Virus record (IMG/VR): IMGVR_UViG_3300042731_004325
Location: 1 to 42,192 of that record
DNA length: 42,192 nt
DNA from: a virus
Reading direction: 5' to 3' (one strand)
The notes under the pieces are model-generated. The model made no database searches. It saw nothing but the letters and a program-made list of their open reading frames with translations, and was not told where the DNA came from. Shown here in pieces: positions 755 through 42,192 of this stretch. Position numbers and translations under genes: made by a program. The first letter of the stretch is position 1. Every line of letters begins with the position of its first letter.

Positions 755-901
755 ATGAGCGAAATCGATAAACTAATAAACTGGGGGGAGCTTAGCAGAT
801 TACTGGCAGGCTCCCGTTCTGCTATTACAAGAAAGCGTAAACGAACTACGCAATATGCTCCAAGAATGGCACGATTCTTTGCGTTCTTAAATGGGGCCTA
901 A
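755..901 (+). CDS. Small helical DNA-binding-like protein, 48 aa
   Basis: The ATG follows the previous stop by 2 bp. The product reads MSEIDKLINWGELSRLLAGS followed by a very basic segment (ITRKRKRTT) and an aromatic helix (ARFFAFLNGA). The pattern WGELSRLLAGSRSAI is that of small phage helix-turn-helix proteins seen in Bacteroidota phages. The stop codon overlaps the GCCTAAC box of the next attC-like site, as in integron cassettes where the gene abuts its site. DNA binding is inferred from composition. Confidence 0.5.
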   Translation: MSEIDKLINWGELSRLLAGSRSAITRKRKRTTQYAPRMARFFAFLNGA

Positions 902-1024
902 CGTTCAGAATATGAAATGTAGGCAATTGAAACACCTACTTTCGACTACAAATAGAACTTAAATAAAAGATAAACAGATTAATAACCGCACTTACCGCCT
1001 ATATTTTATATTTATTGTTAGGCG
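896..1024 (+). other. attC-like inverted-repeat site 2
   Basis: The outer boxes GCCTAAC (896-902) and GTTAGGC (1017-1023) are perfect complements and match RYYYAAC and GTTRRRY. The inner arm AATATGAAATGTAGGC (909-924) pairs along all 16 positions with GCCTATATTTTATATT (997-1012), 14 Watson-Crick and two G.T pairs (G914, G919). The loop of about 70 bases holds an A-rich stretch (AACTTAAATAAAAG) that resembles the loops of the sites at 2861 and 3549. The total length of 128 bp is in the range of attC sites. Confidence 0.7.
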
Positions 1025-1045
1025 TAGTGCATAATACTTACGAAA

Positions 1046-1258
1046 ATGACAGACAGAGTAAAAGGATTTACAGTAACATTAGAATATGACGTTAGAATTG
1101 ATGACGTAGAGGTAATTTTAAACGCTGTACGAATGATAAAAGGCGTTGCAAATGTTGAGCTAAGTATAAGTACACACGATGACCACATGAATAGAGAGCG
1201 TTTAAAATGGGAATTAAAAGATAAGTTTTATGAATTTATGAAGGCGAACTTGACGTAG
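1046..1258 (+). CDS. Conserved hypothetical 70-aa protein, cassette gene
   Basis: The sequence MTDRVKGFTVTLEYDVRIDD, followed by VEVILNAVRMIKGVANVELS, resembles a widespread small phage and plasmid family with an alternating beta-alpha-beta pattern and a C-terminal HMNRERLKWELKDKF helix. The biochemical role is unknown to me. It sits 22 bp after the right box of site 2 and just before the GCCTAAC box at 1265, so it forms a single-gene cassette without a visible promoter of its own. Confidence 0.6.
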   Translation: MTDRVKGFTVTLEYDVRIDDVEVILNAVRMIKGVANVELSISTHDDHMNRERLKWELKDKFYEFMKANLT

Positions 1259-1264
1259 CATTAC

Positions 1265-1292
1265 GCCTAACGGACAGGTATATGAGCCGTGC
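1265..1292 (+). other. Left arm of a split attC-like site (pairs with 1779-1804)
   Basis: GCCTAAC (1265-1271) is followed by GGTATATGAGCCGTGC (1277-1292). The latter can pair at all 16 positions, with two G.T pairs (G1284, G1289), with GCATGGCTTATATACC at 1779-1794. The arms are about 490 bp apart and enclose the gene at 1349. Spacing of the two G.T positions from the left box matches the intact sites. Confidence 0.65.
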
Positions 1293-1348
1293 GGATTAAC
1301 CCACGGACAATCGAACGAGGTATGCAGTAATAATTAAATATTTTAGTG

Positions 1349-1732
1349 ATGGAACATTTAGATTTTGTAAAAGAACTTGAAAAATACGGTATTTCATTTA
1401 GAAGTACCAACGTGGAAAATAAAGTAAAAGAGATTGAAATACCTAAATATTTTGGAGGTAGTAATATTGTCGAAATTAAAAACTTGAAATGTAACTACAA
1501 AGAAACGGAGCATTTCGCAAGACCAACAGCATTACAGTCTATTATTTCAAAAGCTATTGATATGGATAGTTGGAAACATAGTTGGCATAATGAAATAAAG
1601 CCAGAAAATTATGAGAGGTTTATTGAAATAATCCAGAAAAAGATAATTGACCGTGCCAGTGAAATTGATTTTTTAATAACCGCAATGTTTGTTTTAAGAA
1701 AAGAGATTTCAAGCGGGGAGGGAAATATTTAA
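1349..1732 (+). CDS. Hypothetical 127-aa protein inside a split recombination-like site
   Basis: No family recognised. The ATG at 1349 is used; a GTG directly before it would add one residue. The N-terminal half is charged with beta character (FRSTNVENKVKEIEIPKYFG). The C-terminal half is helical (YERFIEIIQKKIIDRASEID then FLITAMFVLRKEI). The last helix is hydrophobic but too charged to be a convincing membrane span. The whole gene lies between two complementary arms (1265-1292 and 1766-1804), an unusual place for a cassette gene. Confidence 0.55.
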   Translation: MEHLDFVKELEKYGISFRSTNVENKVKEIEIPKYFGGSNIVEIKNLKCNYKETEHFARPTALQSIISKAIDMDSWKHSWHNEIKPENYERFIEIIQKKIIDRASEIDFLITAMFVLRKEISSGEGNI

Positions 1733-1765
1733 TTATGGTCAAATTAGCACAAACTATGAAACGAG

Positions 1766-1804
1766 CTACAAAAGCAAGCATGGCTTATATACCATGTTGT
1801 AGCA
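1766..1804 (+). other. Right arm of the split attC-like site; also a local hairpin
   Basis: GCATGGCTTATATACC (1779-1794) pairs with the arm at 1277-1292, and TTGTAGC (1798-1804) is the right box. Locally, GCTACAA (1766-1772) and TTGTAGC (1798-1804) are perfect complements enclosing CATGG/CCATG (1780-1784, 1793-1797). The segment can therefore also fold alone. A 47-codon frame running through it (1735 onward) is not credible as a gene. Confidence 0.55.
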
Positions 1805-1816
1805 TCGTTTTAATGT

Positions 1817-1880
1817 GCTACAACGGCTGGCGGTATGATTCGTTTGCTCCACGAATCCGCAATAAATTTGGAGCGTAGTA
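1817..1880 (+). other. Orphan left arm of an attC-like site
   Basis: GCTACAACGGCTGGCGGTATG starts at about 1818 and is nearly identical to the left arm at 2215 (CCTACAACGGCTGGCGGTATG). No matching right arm lies within 400 bases except that of the site at 2344, where pairing is only partial. A perfect 7-bp hairpin GATTCGT/ACGAATC lies just downstream. It may be the remnant of a cassette junction whose right half was lost. Confidence 0.4.
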
Positions 1881-1903
1881 ATAATTTAAAAAATAACTGA
1901 GCG

Positions 1904-2212
1904 ATGGATTTTGGATATGCAATACAAGTTTTAAGAGAAAAAGTAGTTGATGATAGTTATGAACTTACATTAGCTGTAGAGCAAAAAGACGAGGATATGC
2001 AAGAAAGGCAAAAAGAACGATTAGCAATTTTGCAAGATGCTATGAATGCGTTGGCTAAACTTTCGATCGTACCACAAGCAAATGAATTATTACCGCATGT
2101 TGTAGGGCGAAGCGAACAGTTAAAGGCTTTTGCCCAATTTTTATACAACAAAGAGTATTTAGTAAGAAGGTCAATAGATGAAGCAATCGAAGAATTTGAA
2201 AAAAGCCTTTAA
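1904..2212 (+). CDS. Hypothetical helical 102-aa protein, cassette gene
   Basis: The protein is nearly all helix and strongly charged: MDFGYAIQVLREKVVDDSYE, then EDMQERQKERLAILQDAMNA. The C-terminal region contains LLPHVVGRSEQLKAFAQFLY, a pattern I associate with small Bacteroidota phage proteins of unknown function. It lies between two left-arm elements (1817 and 2215) with no promoter of its own in view. An antisense frame over the same stretch is a shadow. Confidence 0.6.
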   Translation: MDFGYAIQVLREKVVDDSYELTLAVEQKDEDMQERQKERLAILQDAMNALAKLSIVPQANELLPHVVGRSEQLKAFAQFLYNKEYLVRRSIDEAIEEFEKSL

Positions 2213-2214
2213 TT

Positions 2215-2352
2215 GCCTACAACGGCTGGCGGTATGCGGTCGTTGCCGCTTATCGGACACGTATAAACTTAATTTAAAGAACTAAAGATATGAATACAAA
2301 TAACTTATCAGAAAAGAACAAAGGCAATGCCGTATTACCGCTTGTTGTAGCC
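2215..2352 (+). other. attC-like inverted-repeat site 5, overlapping an ORF start
   Basis: CCTACAAC (2216-2223) and GTTGTAGC (2344-2351) form the outer boxes. The inner arm GCGGTATGCGGTCGTTGCC (from 2230) pairs with GGCAATGCCGTATTACCGC (2323-2341) with one bulge on each side and two G.T pairs (G2236, G2242). The loop again carries an A-rich motif (TATAAACTTAATTTAAAG). The in-frame ATG at 2290 lies inside this site, so translation from it would read recombination-site DNA. Confidence 0.6.
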
Positions 2353-2364
2353 AGTACGGCTTTA

Positions 2365-2856
2365 GTGGTCCATATTGATGAATTAACTAAGGTCTGCGGC
2401 TATGCAAATTCGGAAACGCCTGTAAATAACCATTATGGATGCAACCATCAAAATTGTGAAGAAAAAGAAATTGTGCGTGTGCGTGAGAATGGTTCGCATG
2501 AAAGATTTTCTAAAAACATTGAGCAAAAAATTCTAATGATTTCACTTCGTAGGAGATATGGGAGTTGGAAAAAAATACAAAGAGCTTTGAAAACAGAGGA
2601 AGGGAATCAATTTGCAAATGATATTCGTTCCAATAAGATTTATGAAAGTGATTTTATTGCTCAATTTGGATGCAAATTGCAAGGTAAATGCTATTCTTTT
2701 TCATGTCCAATAGCTAATGAGTGCGATTTAGAAGATTTAAAAGCACACGACACTGATTTATACAACGAATACAAGGATGAAGATTATGACCCATCCGAGA
2801 GTGGTGCTGACCTTATGTTAATTACTGATGAAAAGCTAATCGAAGCACTTTCGTAG
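2365..2856 (+). CDS. Cys-rich hypothetical protein, probable zinc binder
   Basis: The open frame begins at an ATG at 2290, but its first 25 codons are attC-like DNA. A GTG at 2365, just past the right box, gives a 163-aa protein and is my preferred start, without certainty. The Cys/His set includes VCGYANSETPVNNHYGC, NHQNC, GKCYSFSC and NEC, which suggests one or two zinc sites. The middle is basic (ISLRRRYGSWKKIQRALK) and the C-terminus acidic. Related small proteins with VNN-YGC motifs occur in Bacteroidota phages and arrays; function unknown. Confidence 0.5.
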   Translation: MVHIDELTKVCGYANSETPVNNHYGCNHQNCEEKEIVRVRENGSHERFSKNIEQKILMISLRRRYGSWKKIQRALKTEEGNQFANDIRSNKIYESDFIAQFGCKLQGKCYSFSCPIANECDLEDLKAHDTDLYNEYKDEDYDPSESGADLMLITDEKLIEALS

Positions 2857-2860
2857 TATT

Positions 2861-2962
2861 GGCTACAACGAACGAGTGTATGGCAAGTAAGCCAAGCACT
2901 AAACTTTGAATTGAAATATAAACTTAACTGGCTTATTTGCTATACACATTGTTAGCAACTGG
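2861..2962 (+). other. attC-like inverted-repeat site 3
   Basis: This is the cleanest site. The left box GGCTACAACG (2861-2870) is followed by the arm GTGTATGGCAAGTAAGCCA (2876-2894). That pairs over 19 positions with TGGCTTATTTGCTATACAC (2929-2947), all Watson-Crick except two G.T pairs (G2882, G2887). The right box is GTTAGC (2951-2956). The loop contains TATAAACTTAACTGG, similar to the other loops. It separates the genes at 2365 and 2985. Confidence 0.7.
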
Positions 2963-2984
2963 GCGGTTTTAAAAACGATAAATT

Positions 2985-3221
2985 ATGATTAAAAGTAGTA
3001 TTGAAAAACTTGCTGATACAATAGGATTTGATATTGGCACAAGTGATGACGTAACACAGGCTAAATTGATAAACGGACTGTGCAAAGGGTTAAATAACTC
3101 TATACCGCAGAAAAGCGACTTAGATATGCAACTGTGTTACATAGCGGATAAACTTGATGAAAAGACTGAAAAAGTTTTGGTTGGATTAGTAGAATTTATC
3201 AAGTTGAAAAACGATAAGTAG
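2985..3221 (+). CDS. Hypothetical 78-aa protein, cassette gene
   Basis: No family recognised. A helical, mildly acidic protein starting MIKSSIEKLADTIGFDIGTS and ending VGLVEFIKLKNDK. It begins 28 bp after the right box of site 3 and ends at a short left-box-like element (CTTGCATATAACGG at 3223) that recurs at 40355. No promoter is visible, so expression may depend on read-through. Confidence 0.5.
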   Translation: MIKSSIEKLADTIGFDIGTSDDVTQAKLINGLCKGLNNSIPQKSDLDMQLCYIADKLDEKTEKVLVGLVEFIKLKNDK

Positions 3222-3222
3222 C

Positions 3223-3236
3223 CTTGCATATAACGG
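3223..3236 (+). repeat. Short left-box-like element TTGCATATAACGG
   Basis: CCTTGCATATAACGG recurs exactly at 40354-40368, in the other half of the accessory array. Both copies sit at the end of a small gene unit, where left boxes of attC-like sites usually lie. No right arm partner was found for either copy. Confidence 0.4.
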
Positions 3237-3259
3237 AAATAATAAATACAGTAACGATT

Positions 3260-3571
3260 ATGAAAAAAGAGATAAAGCAAATATTAGAGCAGACTTTTGC
3301 ATACAACGTAGAAAACGACAAAGTAGCGCAAGAGTTATTGGATTTATTTAGTGTTATGCACCGTTGTTCTGCATGTAAATTTTGGAAGCAGACAACTAAT
3401 TACGAGCATAGCACTAATGATGGAATTTGTAATAAACTCAATAGTACCGACAAAGTAACCATAAATTTACATTTGGGTTGGGAAGGTGGATACGTAAATA
3501 CTGTTGAAACAGAGGAAGATTTTTATTGCCACCTTTTTGAGTGTAATGGGGCACAACGTTTGATAATATGA
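3260..3571 (+). CDS. Small Cys-containing hypothetical protein, cassette gene
   Basis: The ATG at 3260 is chosen over 3224 because the upstream codons overlap the previous junction element. The product has CSACKFW near residue 41, GICNKLN, and a C-terminal YCHLFEC. This Cys pattern, with CxxCxxW followed by a late YC-FE, is found in small Bacteroidota phage proteins and suggests a metal site. Function is not known. Its 3' end overlaps site 4 (from 3549). Confidence 0.5.
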   Translation: MKKEIKQILEQTFAYNVENDKVAQELLDLFSVMHRCSACKFWKQTTNYEHSTNDGICNKLNSTDKVTINLHLGWEGGYVNTVETEEDFYCHLFECNGAQRLII

Positions 3572-3682
3572 AAAGTAGCGTGTTTGAAACACTGCTTTTC
3601 GCAAACAGATAAACTTGAATAAATGTAATTACTTTAATATTAACCAGTCAGCAGCTATTTTTTATATTATGTGTTAGGTGCT
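3549..3682 (+). other. attC-like inverted-repeat site 4
   Basis: The left box GCACAAC (3551-3557) can pair with the right element GTTAGGTGC (3673-3681) if AG is bulged. The arm ATAATATGAAAAGTAGC (3563-3579) pairs over 17 positions with GCTATTTTTTATATTAT (3654-3670), with two G.T pairs (G3570, G3575). A second hairpin (GAAAAGTAGCGTGTTT with AAACACTGCTTTTC) competes with it. The loop contains AACTTGAATAAATG. The right box fits GTTRRRY. Confidence 0.65.
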
Positions 3683-3705
3683 GGCGCAATTTGGAGGATT
3701 AAAAA

Positions 3706-3873
3706 ATGAGTATGCAAAGTAGATTTGAAAGAGAAATTGAAATGATTGAAAACGATGAATCAATGACTCCGCAAGAGAAAGCGAGAGAGATTCGCAAAAT
3801 TGAAAGAGACTATTGTGATGCAGCAAGAGAATCAGCAGAAAGAGCTTATGATGATGAAATGGAACGATGGTAA
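3706..3873 (+). CDS. Small charged helical protein, 55 aa, cassette gene
   Basis: The ATG follows a GGAGG ribosome-binding site by 9 bp (ATTTGGAGGATTAAAAAATG), the clearest RBS in the array. The protein starts MSMQSRFEREIEMIENDESM and is almost entirely Glu, Arg and Lys with one Cys, ending RAYDDEMERW. Its middle (TPQEKAREIRKIERDY) resembles a motif common in small phage proteins. It is predicted to be one or two long helices. Function unknown. It lies between the right box of site 4 and the paired boxes at 3878-3910. Confidence 0.6.
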   Translation: MSMQSRFEREIEMIENDESMTPQEKAREIRKIERDYCDAARESAERAYDDEMERW

Positions 3874-3877
3874 ATTT

Positions 3878-3910
3878 GTTGGGTGCTGGCTGGCTGCGCT
3901 TGCACCTAAC
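3878..3910 (+). other. Inverted boxes GTTGGGTGC / GCACCTAAC
   Basis: GTTGGGTGC (3878-3886) and GCACCTAAC (3902-3910) are complementary over 9 bp with one G.T pair and a 15-base spacer. The order is right box then left box, the reverse of a normal attC. GTTGGGTGCTGGC also nearly repeats GTTAGGTGCTGGC at 3673. This looks like two cassette borders brought together, with the 55-aa gene between the two right-box copies. Confidence 0.45.
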
Positions 3911-3953
3911 TACCAGATATATTAACTATATAGACCAAATAACTGATTACCAA

Positions 3954-4190
3954 ATGAATAATCTATTAACTATAAACCAAATAAAGTCACATCCTGAAAC
4001 AACAATTGGCTGGATGTGTTACAATATTTTTATAACAATTGATAACCAGGTCGTTAATCTATCATTTGAACCTTTGAAGGAGCAATTGATAGGTGGTTCT
4101 TATTGCTATTACTGCAATGGGAAATATCGGACAAAAAAATGGATCAGGAACAATTGCACAAAAGTACTGGGATTTATATTTAATGATTAA
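3954..4190 (+). CDS. Hypothetical 78-aa protein
   Basis: The frame is open from 3867, but the first 29 codons run through junction DNA, so the ATG at 3954 is preferred. The product begins MNNLLTINQIKSHPETTIGW. It has beta-rich segments (MCYNIFITIDNQVVNLSFEP) and a CYYCNGKYRTKKW element that is a weak half of a zinc ribbon. No family recognised. Confidence 0.4.
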   Translation: MNNLLTINQIKSHPETTIGWMCYNIFITIDNQVVNLSFEPLKEQLIGGSYCYYCNGKYRTKKWIRNNCTKVLGFIFND

Positions 4191-4284
4191 TTTTTTTGGT
4201 GATATTCATCACCTTTTGCTTAAATATTCGTAACAAAGTGTTATCTTTAACGTATAATTAGATAAACAATTAAAACATAGCAAA
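4191..4284 (+). promoter_or_regulatory. Promoter cassette B, start of the early operon
   Basis: A perfect palindrome GGTGATATTCATCACC (4198-4213) is flanked by T-runs. It is followed by TTTTG, TAACA-AAG-TGTTA (4231-4243), TATCTTTA and CGTATAAT, with ATG at 4285. It is nearly identical to copies at 457, 13607 and 41064, and the leader matches copy C almost base for base. It is the only clear promoter before the closely packed genes up to 6068, so it probably drives the early operon. The palindrome could be an operator or a terminator of upstream transcription. Confidence 0.65.
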
Positions 4285-4494
4285 ATGAAAACAACAGAAT
4301 TAAAACAAATGGTAAAAGACCATGCTAATATAATGAATCATATTTATCATGGTCGTGGGAGTTATGATCTTGAAAAAATGGCATCTAAATTAGAATTAAA
4401 TTATATTTTGAAAACTGGCAAACAGATACATGAAGATGAGCTTCATAAACAGGAATTGAAAAAATTTGATAATATAAATCAAATAATAATGTGA
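4285..4494 (+). CDS. Hypothetical 69-aa early protein
   Basis: No family recognised. A basic helical protein starting MKTTELKQMVKDHANIMNHI. It is the first gene behind promoter cassette B and overlaps the next gene by 4 bp (ATGTGATG region), which indicates translational coupling. Confidence 0.55.
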   Translation: MKTTELKQMVKDHANIMNHIYHGRGSYDLEKMASKLELNYILKTGKQIHEDELHKQELKKFDNINQIIM

Positions 4495-5893: not shown

Positions 5894-6068
5894 TTGCTGC
5901 GTTTTAATGAAGCGAAGCAAAAAAAGAATCGGCATTTATGGAGGTTTAAAAGCTGTTTACCAATGCCCTGATTGTTGTTATTTTGAACCTGATGAAAGTT
6001 TTTATATGAAATCAAAAAATACGGAAAGATTCAATAATGAAACTAATTTTTATTTTGATAAGTCATAA
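5862..6068 (+). CDS. Zinc-ribbon protein, 68 aa
   Basis: Two CxxC knuckles, CPNC (about residues 9-12) and CPDC (about 35-38), each followed by a further Cys, define a small zinc ribbon. Between them lies a basic loop (MKRSKKRIGIYGGLKAVYQ). The gene overlaps the annealing protein by 32 bp. Such ribbons in phage early operons often bind nucleic acid or RNA polymerase, but the target here is unknown. Confidence 0.55.
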   Translation: MMSDSEKLCPNCCVLMKRSKKRIGIYGGLKAVYQCPDCCYFEPDESFYMKSKNTERFNNETNFYFDKS

Positions 6069-6107
6069 CAAAATGTTAATTTAGCAGAAATTTAATACAG
6101 AAACAAA
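6050..6107 (+). promoter_or_regulatory. Promoter with TAACA-AAA-TGTTA palindrome
   Basis: TTTTG (about 6051-6055) is separated by 19 bp from TAATTTAG (6077-6084), close to the Bacteroidota TTTG-N19-TAnnTTTG promoter. The inverted repeat TAACA-AAA-TGTTA (6066-6078) overlaps the -7 box exactly as in the four promoter cassettes. It would start transcription before the gene at 6108 and feed the exonuclease. Confidence 0.55.
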
Positions 6108-6335
6108 ATGAAAGCAGAAACAAAATTTAATGTAAACGATGAAGTCTTTATACTTCATGAAATGAAAATCATCAAGGTAACTGTCTATGGTATAGATGTT
6201 GCAATCAAGGAGGAAACAACTGATATAAATTATCGTTTTAAAGTCACAAAATTCGATGATTGGAATTTCGTAAGCAAAGAAGAAAAAGAGGTTTTTTCTT
6301 CAAGTGATGAACTATTAAACTACTTACAATCATGA
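6108..6335 (+). CDS. Hypothetical 75-aa protein, SH3-like beta fold suspected
   Basis: The pattern is that of a small beta-barrel: MKAETKFNVNDEVFILHEMK, then IIKVTVYGIDVAIKE, YRFKVTKFDDW and a C-terminal FSSSDELLNYLQS helix. Small proteins of this type, with NVNDEVFIL near the start and ELLNYL at the end, are common in Bacteroidota phages and have no assigned function that I know. It overlaps the exonuclease gene by 4 bp. Confidence 0.5.
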   Translation: MKAETKFNVNDEVFILHEMKIIKVTVYGIDVAIKEETTDINYRFKVTKFDDWNFVSKEEKEVFSSSDELLNYLQS

Positions 6336-7201
6336 CACAAATCATCAAAGACATGCCTTTAAAGGCATATCACGAAGAGAGCGAACATTACAGCGCAACG
6401 GGGCTTAAACACGCCCTGCGCTCTTTAAAGGAAATGCGCTACTATCTTGACGGTAAACTGGAAGAAAAACGTGGCAAGTTTCTGGATTTCGGGAATGCTT
6501 TTGAAACAAAACTGCTTGAACCGGACGAGTTTAAAAACAACGTGGCCGTTTTCCCTGCCGAAAAACTTAAATACGACATTCAGGAAATGAGGCCGGAGTT
6601 AAAAGTAGTTGCAAGTTCGAAAGAATTTAAATCAGTCAAGGATGCTTTTTATGCTGAAAATTCAGAGAAGTATATCATTGAAGATTATGGAATGGAAGGA
6701 TTGAAAACCCTTGAAGAAATGGAAAAATCATGCCGGGAAAACCCTATTATTTCAAAACTTATTTCTCAAGTAGAAAAGCAAGTGTCAATTTTTTGGACAG
6801 ATGAAAAAACGGGCGTGAAATTAAAGACAAGGCCGGACACGTCCAGGTCAGAAAAGAACGTTATTGTTGATGTAAAAACAACCCGTGACGCTTCGCCCCG
6901 GATGTTCTCAAAGCAAATTAATGATTTAAATTACTGGCTGCAAGCTTGCTTGCAGATTGAAGGCTGCCTGAAATCGGGTTACATGGAAAAGATTGACGGT
7001 TATTTCTGGTTGGCAGTCGAAAAGGAAGCTCCTTTCAATGCCGTGCTTTACGAGTTTGCAAAAGAGGACATTGAAAGGAAAATGATCGAGGTTAGGTTGA
7101 TTCTTGATAAAATTGCTGAAAGCGAAAAGTCAGGCATTTGGTCAGGCTACGAATCAGAAGCAAGCAATAATTTTGGTATTTTAAAAGCAAAAATATGGTA
7201 A
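6332..7201 (+). CDS. PD-(D/E)XK exonuclease, RecE/exodeoxyribonuclease VIII-like
   Basis: The 289-aa protein carries the ordered motifs of the PDDEXK_12 group. LDFGNAFETKLLEP (about residues 51-64) is the first helix motif. KTRPD (165-169) and IVDVKTT (178-184) supply the catalytic Asp and the D-x-K pair. A downstream helix follows (QINDLNYWLQACLQIEGCL). The N-terminal YSATGLKHALRS is typical of this family. The expected activity is 5'-3' resection of dsDNA ends, making ssDNA for the annealing protein at 5357. The pair would act in recombination-dependent replication or repair. Confidence 0.8.
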   Translation: MTQIIKDMPLKAYHEESEHYSATGLKHALRSLKEMRYYLDGKLEEKRGKFLDFGNAFETKLLEPDEFKNNVAVFPAEKLKYDIQEMRPELKVVASSKEFKSVKDAFYAENSEKYIIEDYGMEGLKTLEEMEKSCRENPIISKLISQVEKQVSIFWTDEKTGVKLKTRPDTSRSEKNVIVDVKTTRDASPRMFSKQINDLNYWLQACLQIEGCLKSGYMEKIDGYFWLAVEKEAPFNAVLYEFAKEDIERKMIEVRLILDKIAESEKSGIWSGYESEASNNFGILKAKIW

Positions 7202-7344
7202 ACGAAAAGATTGCTAAGTTAAAGCTTGAGATTTGCGAAAACTCAAATAATAAGCAGAAAACTATGTCGCAGCTTAACAGGCTGCTTAATGTTCAGAAAA
7301 GAGAAATAATTAAACAAATCGAGAAAAATATTTGGGAGTTATGA
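7195..7344 (+). CDS. Small coiled-coil hypothetical protein, 49 aa
   Basis: It starts inside the end of the exonuclease gene and ends overlapping the next gene (TTATGA). The sequence MVNEKIAKLKLEICENSNNK, then MSQLNRLLNVQKREIIKQIE, is a heptad-like helical protein. No family recognised. Its tight overlaps on both sides support it as a real gene. Confidence 0.55.
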   Translation: MVNEKIAKLKLEICENSNNKQKTMSQLNRLLNVQKREIIKQIEKNIWEL

Positions 7345-7784
7345 GAAAAAAAGTAGTAATAAAAAAAACAGGGACTAATATTATAGACTTTTTCAAGTCT
7401 TCAAAGTTCGGGGCTGCGCTGCTTATATGCAGCACTATATTAGAAAGTTTTTACGCTTTTAAATTATTTATGCTCACAGGTAAATTCGCTTTTCAGGAAC
7501 TTGCCTATTTTGTAGCTGTCATATATGCCTCAATAATTGCCGGGACAATTGTTTTTTTCGCCCTCAGGAATAACCGCCTAATCGTTTGGGCGGCGGTTAT
7601 CTTTGAGCTTACGATGAACATTCTTTTGGATGTTCAGGCAGTCGCTTTGCTTAAGCCTGAAAATTGGCTTTGGATTTTTGTTTCCCAAATGTCTATCGGG
7701 GCAATATTACCGCTTGCTACAAAAGCGTTTGCGGATGAGGTAGGTAAAAGGGAGTTGAGCAGGAGGTCTCCTCATGCCAATTAA
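7341..7784 (+). CDS. Membrane protein, 147 aa
   Basis: The ATG at 7341 is preferred over a TTG nine bases upstream. After a basic N-terminus (MRKKVVIKK) there are about four hydrophobic segments (FGAALLICSTILESFYAF, LAYFVAVIYASIIAGTIVFF, LIVWAAVIFELTMNILL, WLWIFVSQMSIGAILPLAT). This is a probable four-span inner membrane protein with a charged tail. Similar membrane genes occur beside recombination genes in Bacteroidota phages. The role is unknown. Confidence 0.6.
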   Translation: MRKKVVIKKTGTNIIDFFKSSKFGAALLICSTILESFYAFKLFMLTGKFAFQELAYFVAVIYASIIAGTIVFFALRNNRLIVWAAVIFELTMNILLDVQAVALLKPENWLWIFVSQMSIGAILPLATKAFADEVGKRELSRRSPHAN

Positions 7785-8079
7785 GCCTGAAAATAAGAGC
7801 AAATATCCTAAAAATTGGAAACAAATTTCTAAGGATATAAGGTTTAATAGGGCAAATAATAAGTGTGAAGTTTGCGGAGCTGAAAATTATAAACCGCATC
7901 CGACAACAGGAAATAAGGTAATTTTAACCGTTGCACATTTAGATCATATTCCTGAAAATTGCGACTATTCAAATCTTAAAGCTATGTGCCAGAAATGTCA
8001 TAATAATTATGATAAAGATCACAGAAAAAAAACAAGGATGAAATCTAAATTAAAAGGGCAGCTCGATTTGTTTTCTTAA
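7774..8079 (+). CDS. HNH endonuclease, 101 aa
   Basis: An AGGAGG ribosome-binding site lies 9 bp before the ATG. The protein shows the full HNH finger: CEVC (31-34), the AHLDH motif with catalytic His (54-58), and CQKCHNNYD (72-80), with the N and final zinc ligands in place. Small free-standing phage HNH enzymes often nick DNA at packaging ends or act in homing. Here the gene is among early recombination genes and far from the terminase, so a replication or homing role is equally likely. A terminator follows directly. Confidence 0.8.
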   Translation: MPIKPENKSKYPKNWKQISKDIRFNRANNKCEVCGAENYKPHPTTGNKVILTVAHLDHIPENCDYSNLKAMCQKCHNNYDKDHRKKTRMKSKLKGQLDLFS

Positions 8080-10861: not shown

Positions 10862-11257
10862 ATGAAACAAAAAACATTATTCGATGATGAGTTTGAAATA
10901 AAAACAGAAAGTCAATATACTTCTAAAATTAAAACTCCAGTATATGAACCGAAAAACAAAAAACCTCATTTGCTTGAATTATTTGACGATAGAAAAACAA
11001 AACGTATTATTCAAGAAATCAATAACTCTAATTTACCGAAAGATGAAAAAAACTTTCTAATCGAAGCAGCTAAACGACATACTGTTTTTAATTATCAAAA
11101 AATTGCTGATTATTACGCTCATGCATCAAAAGAAATGCAGGAGCTAATGGAACGTCAAGCACTTGTAATAATTGATTTTAACAAAGCTTATCAATATGGA
11201 TATATTAAACTTGCTCACGACGTAGCAAACCAATATTTTGATAATTATGGAGAATAG
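10862..11257 (+). CDS. Conserved phage protein of unknown function, 131 aa
   Basis: The frame is open from 10814, but its first 16 codons are iteron DNA. The ATG at 10862 gives MKQKTLFDDEFEIKTESQYT. The C-terminal half (LIEAAKRHTVFNYQKIADYY, then AHASKEMQELMERQALVIID) resembles a conserved Bacteroidota phage domain I have seen beside DNA-modification genes, without known activity. It overlaps the glycosyltransferase gene by 11 bp, so the two products probably work together. Confidence 0.6.
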   Translation: MKQKTLFDDEFEIKTESQYTSKIKTPVYEPKNKKPHLLELFDDRKTKRIIQEINNSNLPKDEKNFLIEAAKRHTVFNYQKIADYYAHASKEMQELMERQALVIIDFNKAYQYGYIKLAHDVANQYFDNYGE

Positions 11258-12104
11258 AAAAGATTTTTGTATATTTATAATATCGCACGAAAGACCGAAT
11301 GATATTTATACTTTAAAAACATTAGAAAAAGCAGGATGTACTATTCCGACTTTTATAGTAATTGATAATCATGATAAAACATCTGACGAATACTTAAAAA
11401 ATTATAGAAAACAAGTATTTATATTTGACAAGGATAAATATGCAGCAATGATTGATCAGTATGACAACTTTAATAATTTACGTACAACAACACACGCAAG
11501 AAATGCTTGTTTTGATTTGGCGAAATATTTAGGATATAAATATTTTTTAGTTTTTGATGATGATTATACAAATTTTAGATTCAGATTAAATAGTAATTTA
11601 AAACACAGCAAAAAAGGTCCATCTGTTTTAAAAAATATAGATAATATATTTTACGCAACATTAAAATATTATATTGATTGTAAATTTACATCAATTTGTT
11701 TAGCTCAAGGTGGTGATTTTCTTGGAATTGAAACTACTTTTTATAGAAAAGAAGGTCCTAAAAGAAAAGCAATGAATTCTTTTTTTTGTTCAATTGATAG
11801 ACCGTTTAAGTTTGTGTCAAGGTTAAATGAAGATGTAAACACTTATATGAGTTTAGGCCATACTGGCATGATATTTTTAACTATACCATTTGTGCAATTA
11901 GAGCAAAAAGCTACACAAAAAACAAAAGGGGGAATGACGGAAGCATATTTAGATGATGGAACTTATGTAAAAAGTTTTTACACTGTTTTAACTAGACCAG
12001 ATTGCACTAAATTAAGTTTAATTGCTGGAAATCGAGTGCATCATTTGATAGACTGGAATTCAGCATGTCCTGTAATAATTGATGAAAAATATAAAAAGAA
12101 ATGA
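11247..12104 (+). CDS. TET-associated-type glycosyltransferase (TAGT), probable DNA-base modifier
   Basis: The ATG at 11247 is preferred; a TTG lies nine bases upstream. The 285-aa product has a GT-A-like Rossmann start (FCIFIISHERPNDIYTLKTL), an HARNACFDLAK helix and the metal-binding DxD motif FDDDYTNF (103-110). Downstream are AQGGDFLGIE, MNSFFCSIDRPFKFVSRLNE and GGMTEAYLDDGTYVKSFYTV, segments I associate with TAGT enzymes of phages. These are proposed to add sugars to hydroxymethylated pyrimidines in DNA, protecting it from restriction. No TET/JBP dioxygenase or nucleotide hydroxymethylase was seen in the window. Confidence 0.7.
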   Translation: MENRKDFCIFIISHERPNDIYTLKTLEKAGCTIPTFIVIDNHDKTSDEYLKNYRKQVFIFDKDKYAAMIDQYDNFNNLRTTTHARNACFDLAKYLGYKYFLVFDDDYTNFRFRLNSNLKHSKKGPSVLKNIDNIFYATLKYYIDCKFTSICLAQGGDFLGIETTFYRKEGPKRKAMNSFFCSIDRPFKFVSRLNEDVNTYMSLGHTGMIFLTIPFVQLEQKATQKTKGGMTEAYLDDGTYVKSFYTVLTRPDCTKLSLIAGNRVHHLIDWNSACPVIIDEKYKKK

Positions 12105-13606: not shown

Positions 13607-13697
13607 AAACGGTGATATTCATCACCTTTTGCTTAAATATTCGTAACAAAGTGTTATCTTTAACGTATAATTAGATAAACAATTAAAACATAGCAAA
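13607..13697 (+). promoter_or_regulatory. Promoter cassette C
   Basis: It contains the palindrome GGTGATATTCATCACC (13611-13626), TTTTG, TAACA-AAG-TGTTA (13644-13656), TATCTTTA and CGTATAAT, with the ATG at 13698. From the palindrome to the ATG it is nearly identical to copy B at 4198-4285. It sits far from the accessory array, which shows that the cassette has spread or been duplicated inside the genome. Confidence 0.65.
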
Positions 13698-14012
13698 ATG
13701 AAAACAAGAACATTCAACAAAAGGACTTCAAGGTTTTGCAAAGGAAGTAACGGTTATCAATTAGCAGCTAAATTATTAAAAGGTGAAACTAACTGGGGTT
13801 TTGGAAACAAACTTCGCACATGCTGGACTTCTGGTTCAGGAAGGTTTACGAAAAATATGGATTATACTGATGATACTTTAGAAGTATTGCGATATGCTGG
13901 ATTGAAAAAAGGTGTTGATTTTACGCTTGAAAATGATGCTGCAAGAGGTAGCGCAACGGGCAATTATCTTGTTTTAACGCCTAAAGGAAAAAGAAAAATG
14001 TTACAAGATTAA
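13698..14012 (+). CDS. Hypothetical 104-aa protein
   Basis: No family recognised. A basic protein starting MKTRTFNKRTSRFCKGSNGY, with an aromatic middle (KLRTCWTSGSGRF) and a C-terminal beta stretch (ATGNYLVLTPKGKRKMLQD). It has its own promoter (cassette C) and its own strong terminator, so it forms an independent transcription unit, like the gene at 41156. Confidence 0.55.
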   Translation: MKTRTFNKRTSRFCKGSNGYQLAAKLLKGETNWGFGNKLRTCWTSGSGRFTKNMDYTDDTLEVLRYAGLKKGVDFTLENDAARGSATGNYLVLTPKGKRKMLQD

Positions 14013-40923: not shown

Positions 40924-41072
40924 TGAAAAGAATTGAAATACATCTAACAGAAAAAGAAACCGAAGCACTTGACCAAATTGCAAGTGCTGATGGTAGAAGC
41001 AGAAAAAACTTATGTGAAACTGAAATTCGTAAGTTAATTGAGCGTTGGCAAAAAACTATAAAAAAACGGTGA
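40923..41072 (+). CDS. Ribbon-helix-helix protein, 49 aa
   Basis: MKRIEIHLTEKETEALDQIA, then GRSRKNLCETEIRKLIERWQ, is a compact ribbon-helix-helix domain of the Arc/MetJ type. Its start overlaps the previous stop (TAATG) and its own stop codon lies inside the palindrome of promoter cassette D (41068-41083), so it may bind that operator and regulate it. This is inference from position. Confidence 0.65.
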   Translation: MKRIEIHLTEKETEALDQIASADGRSRKNLCETEIRKLIERWQKTIKKR

Positions 41073-41155
41073 TATTCATCACCTTTTGCTTAAATATTCG
41101 TAACAAAGTGTTATCTTTAACGTATAATTAAATAAACAAACAAAAACATAGCAAG
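41064..41155 (+). promoter_or_regulatory. Promoter cassette D
   Basis: GGTGATATTCATCACC (41068-41083), TTTTG, TAACA-AAG-TGTTA (41101-41113), TATCTTTA and CGTATAAT precede the ATG at 41156. It is nearly identical to copies A-C. The palindrome overlaps the end of the ribbon-helix-helix gene. Confidence 0.65.
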
Positions 41156-42069: not shown

Positions 42070-42107
42070 CACGACAGCCATGTTTTATGATTTGCTGTTA
42101 GGCATCT
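42070..42107 (+). other. Right arm of an attC-like site before the end-duplicated cassette
   Basis: GCCATGTTTTATGATTTGCT then GTTAGGC (42098-42104) is the right-arm form seen at 1017 and 2951. No matching left arm was found upstream within the window. It lies exactly where the second copy of the end-duplicated gene begins, in place of the GTTGTGC found before the first copy. Confidence 0.45.
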
Positions 42108-42192
42108 GTAAAAATTACGGATATGAAGCTAAGCGATAAATTAAAGCAATTACAACAAGAAGCAGAAAACGATGAGTTAACGAGCGATGGCA
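42102..42192 (+). repeat. End duplication, right copy (matches 53-143)
   Basis: 90 of 91 positions match the left copy; the difference is T at 42122 against C at 73. The match ends abruptly upstream of 42102, at GTT plus two differing bases. Confidence 0.85.
42123..42192 (+). CDS. Partial copy of the 79-aa cassette gene (runs off the end)
   Basis: The 70 visible coding bases are identical to 74-143 and encode MKLSDKLKQLQQEAENDELT and onward. The rest is cut off by the window end. If the genome is circular this is the same gene as at 74. Confidence 0.6.
   Translation, partial: MKLSDKLKQLQQEAENDELTSDG

Follow-up and report, generated by a model that had tools for sequence, protein, structure and literature searches.

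The window analysed here, a 42,192-bp virus record of IMG/VR (IMGVR_UViG_3300042731_004325), carries near its left end a run of small open reading frames (ORFs) separated by attC-like sites, which resemble the recombination sites of integron gene cassettes. Both its gene content, which includes a tape measure protein, helicases and an exonuclease, and its terminase, nearest to those of Flavobacterium phage 11b (53%) and Cellulophaga phage phi10:1 and more distant from that of Polaribacter phage P12002L, bear out an earlier note on this DNA that had placed it with tailed phages of the Bacteroidota-infecting kind. To locate the sites we used a detector requiring AACG, GTT[AG] and paired inner arms, and because it was tuned on the window's own sites, comparison with shuffled sequence rather than the raw count serves as the test. 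At a score of at least 10 over the whole 42 kb, the detector places AAC triplets at 900, 1269, 1822, 2221, 2867, 3232 and 3555. Each of them is on the + strand, and with zero sites elsewhere they are confined to 0.9-3.7 kb. At a score of at least 14, five sites remain in the window, again all on the + strand, against 0 in 20 Markov shuffles, which yield a mean of 0.5 sites at 10 or above and 0.1 per shuffle at 12 or above; GCCTAACG occurs 3 times against 0.36 expected. No Rfam family matches the sites, and a MAFFT alignment of the palindromes is poor. The four full sites and the split arms named in the earlier note are present within a few bases of the places given there, but its list was incomplete, lacking sites at 327-406, 1818-2105 and 3228-3359, a terminal half-site at 3904-3926 and half-sites at the contig ends.

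All features of the array lie on the + strand. The first cassette ORF (23-313), whose leader GCATCTGTAAAAATTACGG and trailer GTAATTTTTATTGTGCCTAAC both recur in L007 and L079 (L numbers denote the loci compared), is followed by weak site A (327-406), with boxes GCCTAAC and GTTAGTA and paired inner arms, recognised by eye and in a minimum-free-energy fold and sub-threshold for the detector. Site B (896-1023, score 14.7) precedes ORF 1046-1258 and, as had been noticed, its left box overlaps a gene stop at 901, that of ORF 755-901; the gene unit with ORF 1046-1258 (1018-1271) has the complementary ends TTAGGCGTAGTGC...GCATTACGCCTAAC. The split arms form site C (1265-1802, score 11.0), whose loop of about 500 nt contains the whole of ORF 1346-1732, and site G (1818-2105, score 15.5) has its left arm ahead of and its right arm within ORF 1904-2212, the start codon and 65 codons of which lie in the loop. 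Site D (2217-2350), identified by detector and fold, encodes LPLVVAS in its right arm near the N-terminus of ORF 2290-2856 and is followed by a gene unit (2346-2869) with the complementary ends TTGTAGCCAGTAC...GTATTGGCTACAAC. Then come site E (2863-2957, score 15.0) upstream of ORF 2985-3221; the weak candidate site H (3228-3359, score 12.2), whose right arm lies within ORF 3260-3571; and site F (3551-3679, score 14.2), upstream of ORF 3706-3873 and 73% similar to a site in phage OP947161. The last gene unit (3674-3910, ends TTAGGTGCTGGCGCA...TGCGCTTGCACCTAAC) runs into a putative attI-like end of the array at 3904-3926, where ACCTAAC is followed by TACCAGATATATTAAC; it resembles the attI-like ends of L109 and others and has no recombinase after it. 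Searches of Pfam, PHROGs and PADLOC assigned no convincing function to the cassettes of the array, and a comparison of positions 1500-2400 with plasmids gave zero matches.

Sites of the same family recur in other viral loci. A search pattern for a single arm type matched 34 stretches in viral contigs, and over 1.14 Mb of loci, partly chosen for such sites, 106 sites score at least 12.5 against 0 in shuffles; phage 11b has two attC-like sites of its own by the same detector. Among some 100 sites in 45 viral loci, a single orientation is kept in 42 of the 45, and site lengths cluster near 80-91, 117-124 and 270-305 nt. The sites are imperfect palindromes limited by RYYYAAC and GTTRRRY boxes, with outer R positions looser than RRRY, and have paired inner boxes; single-base bulges, found in 30 of 87 sites, fall 30 times in the right arm and 0 times in the left, the base being G in 25. 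Boxes of this type, paired inner arms with an extrahelical G, a single orientation and a crossover at AAC (see below) are likewise traits of integron arrays and of clusters of attC sites lacking integrase (CALINs). In 118 of 159 (non-independent) pairs of like site bodies, similarity ends no more than 5 bases from the left box, and in 36 it continues for more than 80 bases, whereas on the right it fades more gradually; the ends at the left box are abrupt in L086/L096, L076/L095, L007/L033 and P12002L/P12002S. Scans of 84,980 species genomes returned neither the N-terminal module of ORF 1904-2212 nor its right-arm DNA, while the DNA pattern matched 5 viral stretches, a result for one module that is uninformative on hosts generally.

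The gene units between consecutive sites have ends that match each other, as integron cassettes do. In 71 such units, a unit's own 5' and 3' ends pair with a mean score of 7.43, compared with 2.80 between the two flanks of one site and 2.16 in randomly re-paired controls (standard deviation 0.23, maximum 2.69). In a freed circular cassette, the unit ends would thus be expected to make the site's outer stem, as in integron cassettes but longer: unlike in integrons, the pairing here often extends past the 7-base box, to about 15 bases.

Differences by whole cassettes are seen among isolates of related phages. Polaribacter phages Freya_1 to Freya_10 are recorded from one host strain. Freya_1 matches Freya_10 at every base on both sides of the array, for 7,851 bp beginning at the recombinase start and for 2,835 bp on the upstream side; in the interval between these flanks, Freya_1, 2, 5, 6, 9 and 10 carry differing cassette sets. 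Freya_6, which also has a cassette with a long loop like that of site C, holds one cassette that the compared stretch of Freya_10 lacks, and Freya_10 counts one cassette more than Freya_9. Internal cassettes differ in Freya_8 and in Danklef_3 and Danklef_5, with CAAC or TAAC as the sole shared bases at the junctions, and the differing Danklef cassette carries an adenine methylase gene. The right flank of the window's array matches that of its nearest relative, L004 (proteins nearby 88-95% identical), and the two have zero cassettes in common, so that the fixed intergenic DNA in homologous phages that the earlier note had named as grounds for abandoning its proposal is not what we find. Hairpins formed between genes could instead be fixed intergenic DNA that plays no part in cassettes, such as terminators or palindromic insertion elements, but relatives with the same flank have other genes between their sites, several sites overlap coding sequence, and the whole-unit differences among isolates already contradict such an account, which is therefore scarcely credible. 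The L004 array ends at position 1081 (window 4083) with AAC followed by AATTGATAGG, within the homologue of ORF 3955-4190, and its attI-like end is therefore missing.

The junctions of these cassettes define the point of exchange. In the six Freya isolates with differing sets, the last cassette end (ACAAC, CCAAC or CTAAC) joins a constant ACCCCTATAACAACAATAAG about 50 nt ahead of the recombinase ATG, AAC alone being common to all, and every junction examined in Freya and Danklef coincides with the AAC of the left box as read in gene sense, just 3-4 bases being shared. Two flavobacterial plasmids, L115 and L116, show 99.99% identity along the 7,902 bp that begin at the AAC ahead of a xerA gene. 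Cassette exchange at an AAC triplet is thus seen in Freya, Danklef and the plasmid pair, which are relatives and not the window itself. Homologous recombination between repeated sites, driven by phage annealing proteins (Erf, RecT) and with no site-specific enzyme, would draw on site bodies that are indeed repeated and alike, on the ERF-like and exonuclease genes that the window and its relatives have close to the array, on the RecT of Freya, and on a P12002L/P12002S hybrid that switches within an arm; we nevertheless hold it to be highly improbable, as the junctions in Freya, Danklef and the plasmids share just 3-4 bases that always include AAC, and the pairing of a gene unit's own ends would be left unexplained.

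Recombinase genes lie next to several arrays. Tyrosine recombinases were found in 5 of 34 array contigs, at six places, and four of the six genes start on the same strand 221-370 bp past the last full site. A similarity search with one of these contig enzymes uncovered the same order of array and recombinase in Polaribacter phages Freya and Leef and Cellulophaga phage Ingeline, which together with the Polaribacter phage Danklef (PMC8776804) carry arrays and recombinase and supply the main evidence used here; the paper describing them mentions neither integron, attC nor cassette and takes the integrase as a sign of potentially temperate life. Overall, a like layout is present in Freya, Ingeline and Leef, four IMG/VR contigs and the two flavobacterial plasmids, with arrays that end in RYYYAAC about 40-95 nt before the recombinase ATG. 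Freya and the plasmids have an attI-like point beside the recombinase gene, and the window has an attI-like end only. The claim that the window holds no integrase stands, and where the earlier note left open whether any recombinase acts on the sites, there is now an indication of its kind, a Xer-type tyrosine recombinase encoded directly after the array in related phages and plasmids. The adjacent enzymes are closest to XerA/XerC-type proteins (NF040815; PDB 4a8e, 5hxy), the phage ones scoring 129-199 bits, below the family cut-off of 220, and the Flagellimonas plasmid enzyme passing it with 238. Against the IntI model TIGR02249, the relatives' enzymes reach 92-206 bits (cut-off 265) and match in two pieces, the Freya enzyme lacking about 44 residues between the two parts matched to IntI4, so that they are without the IntI additional domain. 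On L115, a Flagellimonas plasmid, the attI-like point and xerA come immediately after erm(F) (6041-7816), and the Danklef and Freya recombinase genes (MT732458-62 vs MT732463-72) are 99.6% identical in their 3' half only.

With two or more attC sites and without an integrase in their neighbourhood, the window has the make-up of a CALIN, its sites being called by the present detector and not by a published model. It might be a classical attC cluster from a host integron, moved in trans by a true IntI, the Xer-type neighbours being bystanders engaged, for example, in prophage integration. Crossover at AAC and a G that is extrahelical in a single arm are both typical of attC sites, and Qi et al. 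2023 (PMC9892861) describe a CALIN in Polaribacter phage P12002L, one of whose two sites was recombined by IntI1; our detector finds like sites in P12002L, some of them around methyltransferase genes and not necessarily the attC1 and attC2 of that study. We consider this origin unlikely, given that none of 16 array records tested has an IntI-type integrase above the cut-off, that the Freya junctions abut the Xer-type gene, and that Bacteroidetes hold very few integrons according to the IntegronFinder 2.0 paper.

We therefore regard it as very probable that the window, from a tailed phage with relatives among the phages of Flavobacteriia, contains an array of integron-type cassettes moved by a Xer-type tyrosine recombinase at the AAC of the left box; site statistics and the relatives' cassette differences both support the earlier note's cassette-array proposal. 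In this model, a cassette would consist of one attC-like site and the gene or genes after it, the site's loop often providing a leader, start codon or N-terminus. The recombinase would cut within the left-box AAC (RYYYAAC; G/TTRRRY on the other strand, the slash marking the cut) and join it either to another site's AAC or to that of the attI-like site at the array's far end, so that whole cassettes would be gained or lost, much as integrons gain and lose cassettes at an attI site adjoining the 5' end of their recombinase gene. The likely agent in the related phages and plasmids is the adjacent Xer-type enzyme of about 270 amino acids, encoded right after the attI-like site on the same strand. 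As the window has no recombinase, it would have kept the array and the attI-like end and would depend for any activity of its sites on an enzyme supplied in trans by the host or a co-infecting element. It is best read as an integrase-less copy of an integron-like system of flavobacterial phages and plasmids, integron-like in its working and outside the integrons proper for want of the IntI domain.

The polarity of the sites is the reverse of that first proposed: the observed crossover is in the left box, not in the right one, and each site therefore belongs to the downstream gene. Consistent with this assignment, which accounts for start codons inside sites, roughly one in two of the 120-nt sites and the majority of those longer than 250 nt contain the start codon of the following gene; the sites do separate small genes, as had been proposed, but some of the loops are coding. 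In known attC sites, the bottom strand recombines and the crossover triplet is AAC (PMC4792948), a pattern that left-box junctions and right-arm-only bulges would fit if the gene-sense strand here corresponds to the recombining bottom strand. So read, the arrangement would be an integron layout, with the recombinase divergent from the site polarity, attI at its start and the genes inverted. Routine in-frame protein fusion by exchange at G/TT was also considered and is weakened, because the 120-nt sites are spread over the three codon phases (9/9/6) and the junctions seen among isolates fall in the left box; a single codon phase is kept by the long sites alone (11/11 by manual count, near-duplicates and short alternative frames removed). 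Unrelated cassette proteins of L002, L005 and L034 all end in ANEA at the stop codon because the left-box flank GGCAAATGAAGCCTAACG is coding. Furthermore, in L072/L074 and at L009 8981 (minus strand), the 5-6 nt from AAC to the inner stem differ between site bodies otherwise 90-97% identical, which could reflect a two-strand exchange around a short central region.

Several observations weigh against movement by a Xer-type enzyme at the left box. Neither the window nor its nearest relatives have a recombinase gene, and + strand folding of single window sites is weak to modest, with z values of -3.2 (2862-2957) and -2.2 (2217-2350) and none for 3551-3679. The 159 site-body pairs do not represent independent events, and many of the loci were fetched by the site pattern itself. 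Some switches lie elsewhere than at the left-box AAC: that of the P12002L/P12002S hybrid falls inside the left arm, and L083/L092 match L096 with 99.96% identity for 4.8-6.4 kb, as far as the GTTA of a right box inside a gene, beyond which the C-terminal part of the protein differs (L083 4528-4803 vs L096 minus strand 6165-6440), as in a right-box exchange. Likewise, the window and L006 share one site body and a 65-codon N-terminal module (280 bp, 87.5%, from the AAC of site G to just beyond G/TT) and neither flank. Since the same cassette also stands behind different site bodies at the two ends of the window, these cases suggest that the second, right box is exchanged now and then as well, parting site from gene.

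On balance, we lean towards a separate class of integron in phages and plasmids of Bacteroidota, with a Xer-type recombinase without the IntI domain, genes that point at the recombinase, sites that serve at the same time as 5' leader and N-terminal coding sequence, and an occasional second-box exchange that joins an N-terminal to a new C-terminal module, as in L083/L096. In integrons, by contrast, the adjacent recombinase has the IntI additional domain, the genes do not run towards it, and the site does not lie upstream of its gene, where here it may encode the start. A cluster of attC sites in phages is in itself already published: Qi et al. (PMC9892861) report integrase-less clusters in virulent phages, P12002L included, with IntI1 active on 5 of 6 sites tested, and in the available part of that paper no recombinase beside flavobacterial phage arrays and no cassette turnover among isolates is reported. 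The recombinase architecture and the turnover appear to be unreported; we found no account of them in open-access papers, subscription journals and preprints lying mostly outside the search, and their novelty is provisional to that extent. Integron surveys list few cases in Bacteroidetes, and phages have so far been reported mainly as carriers of attC clusters. It appears that the phages studied here swap genes by their own integron-like system: cassette differences can be seen when isolates of a single cultured phage from one host are compared, and they lie next to a recombinase that is encoded by the phage and of a kind that would escape finders requiring the IntI domain. They offer a simple system for studying cassette movement and the formation of new cassettes, in which second-box exchange parts site from gene, and for studying how phages acquire small accessory genes such as methyltransferases.

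Further features of the window lie at or beyond the array. A half-site and cassette start at its right end (42086-42192) repeat the left end, the same cassette start occupying 50-146 and 42101-42192 behind differing site bodies; because the contig ends share this start with different DNA ahead of it, the genome is probably circular or terminally redundant, with an assembly that broke within the variable array. Near-identical promoter-like repeats at 455-559, 4188-4292, 13611-13699 and 41068-41144, each with a GGTGATAT..TCACC hairpin followed by short ORFs, recur in L004 (1188-1283) and L005 (8937-9024); these repeats lie close to the array ends. Finally, the product of 11238-12104 is similar to a glucosyltransferase of modified phage DNA (PHROG 842), which suggests that the DNA of this phage may be modified.

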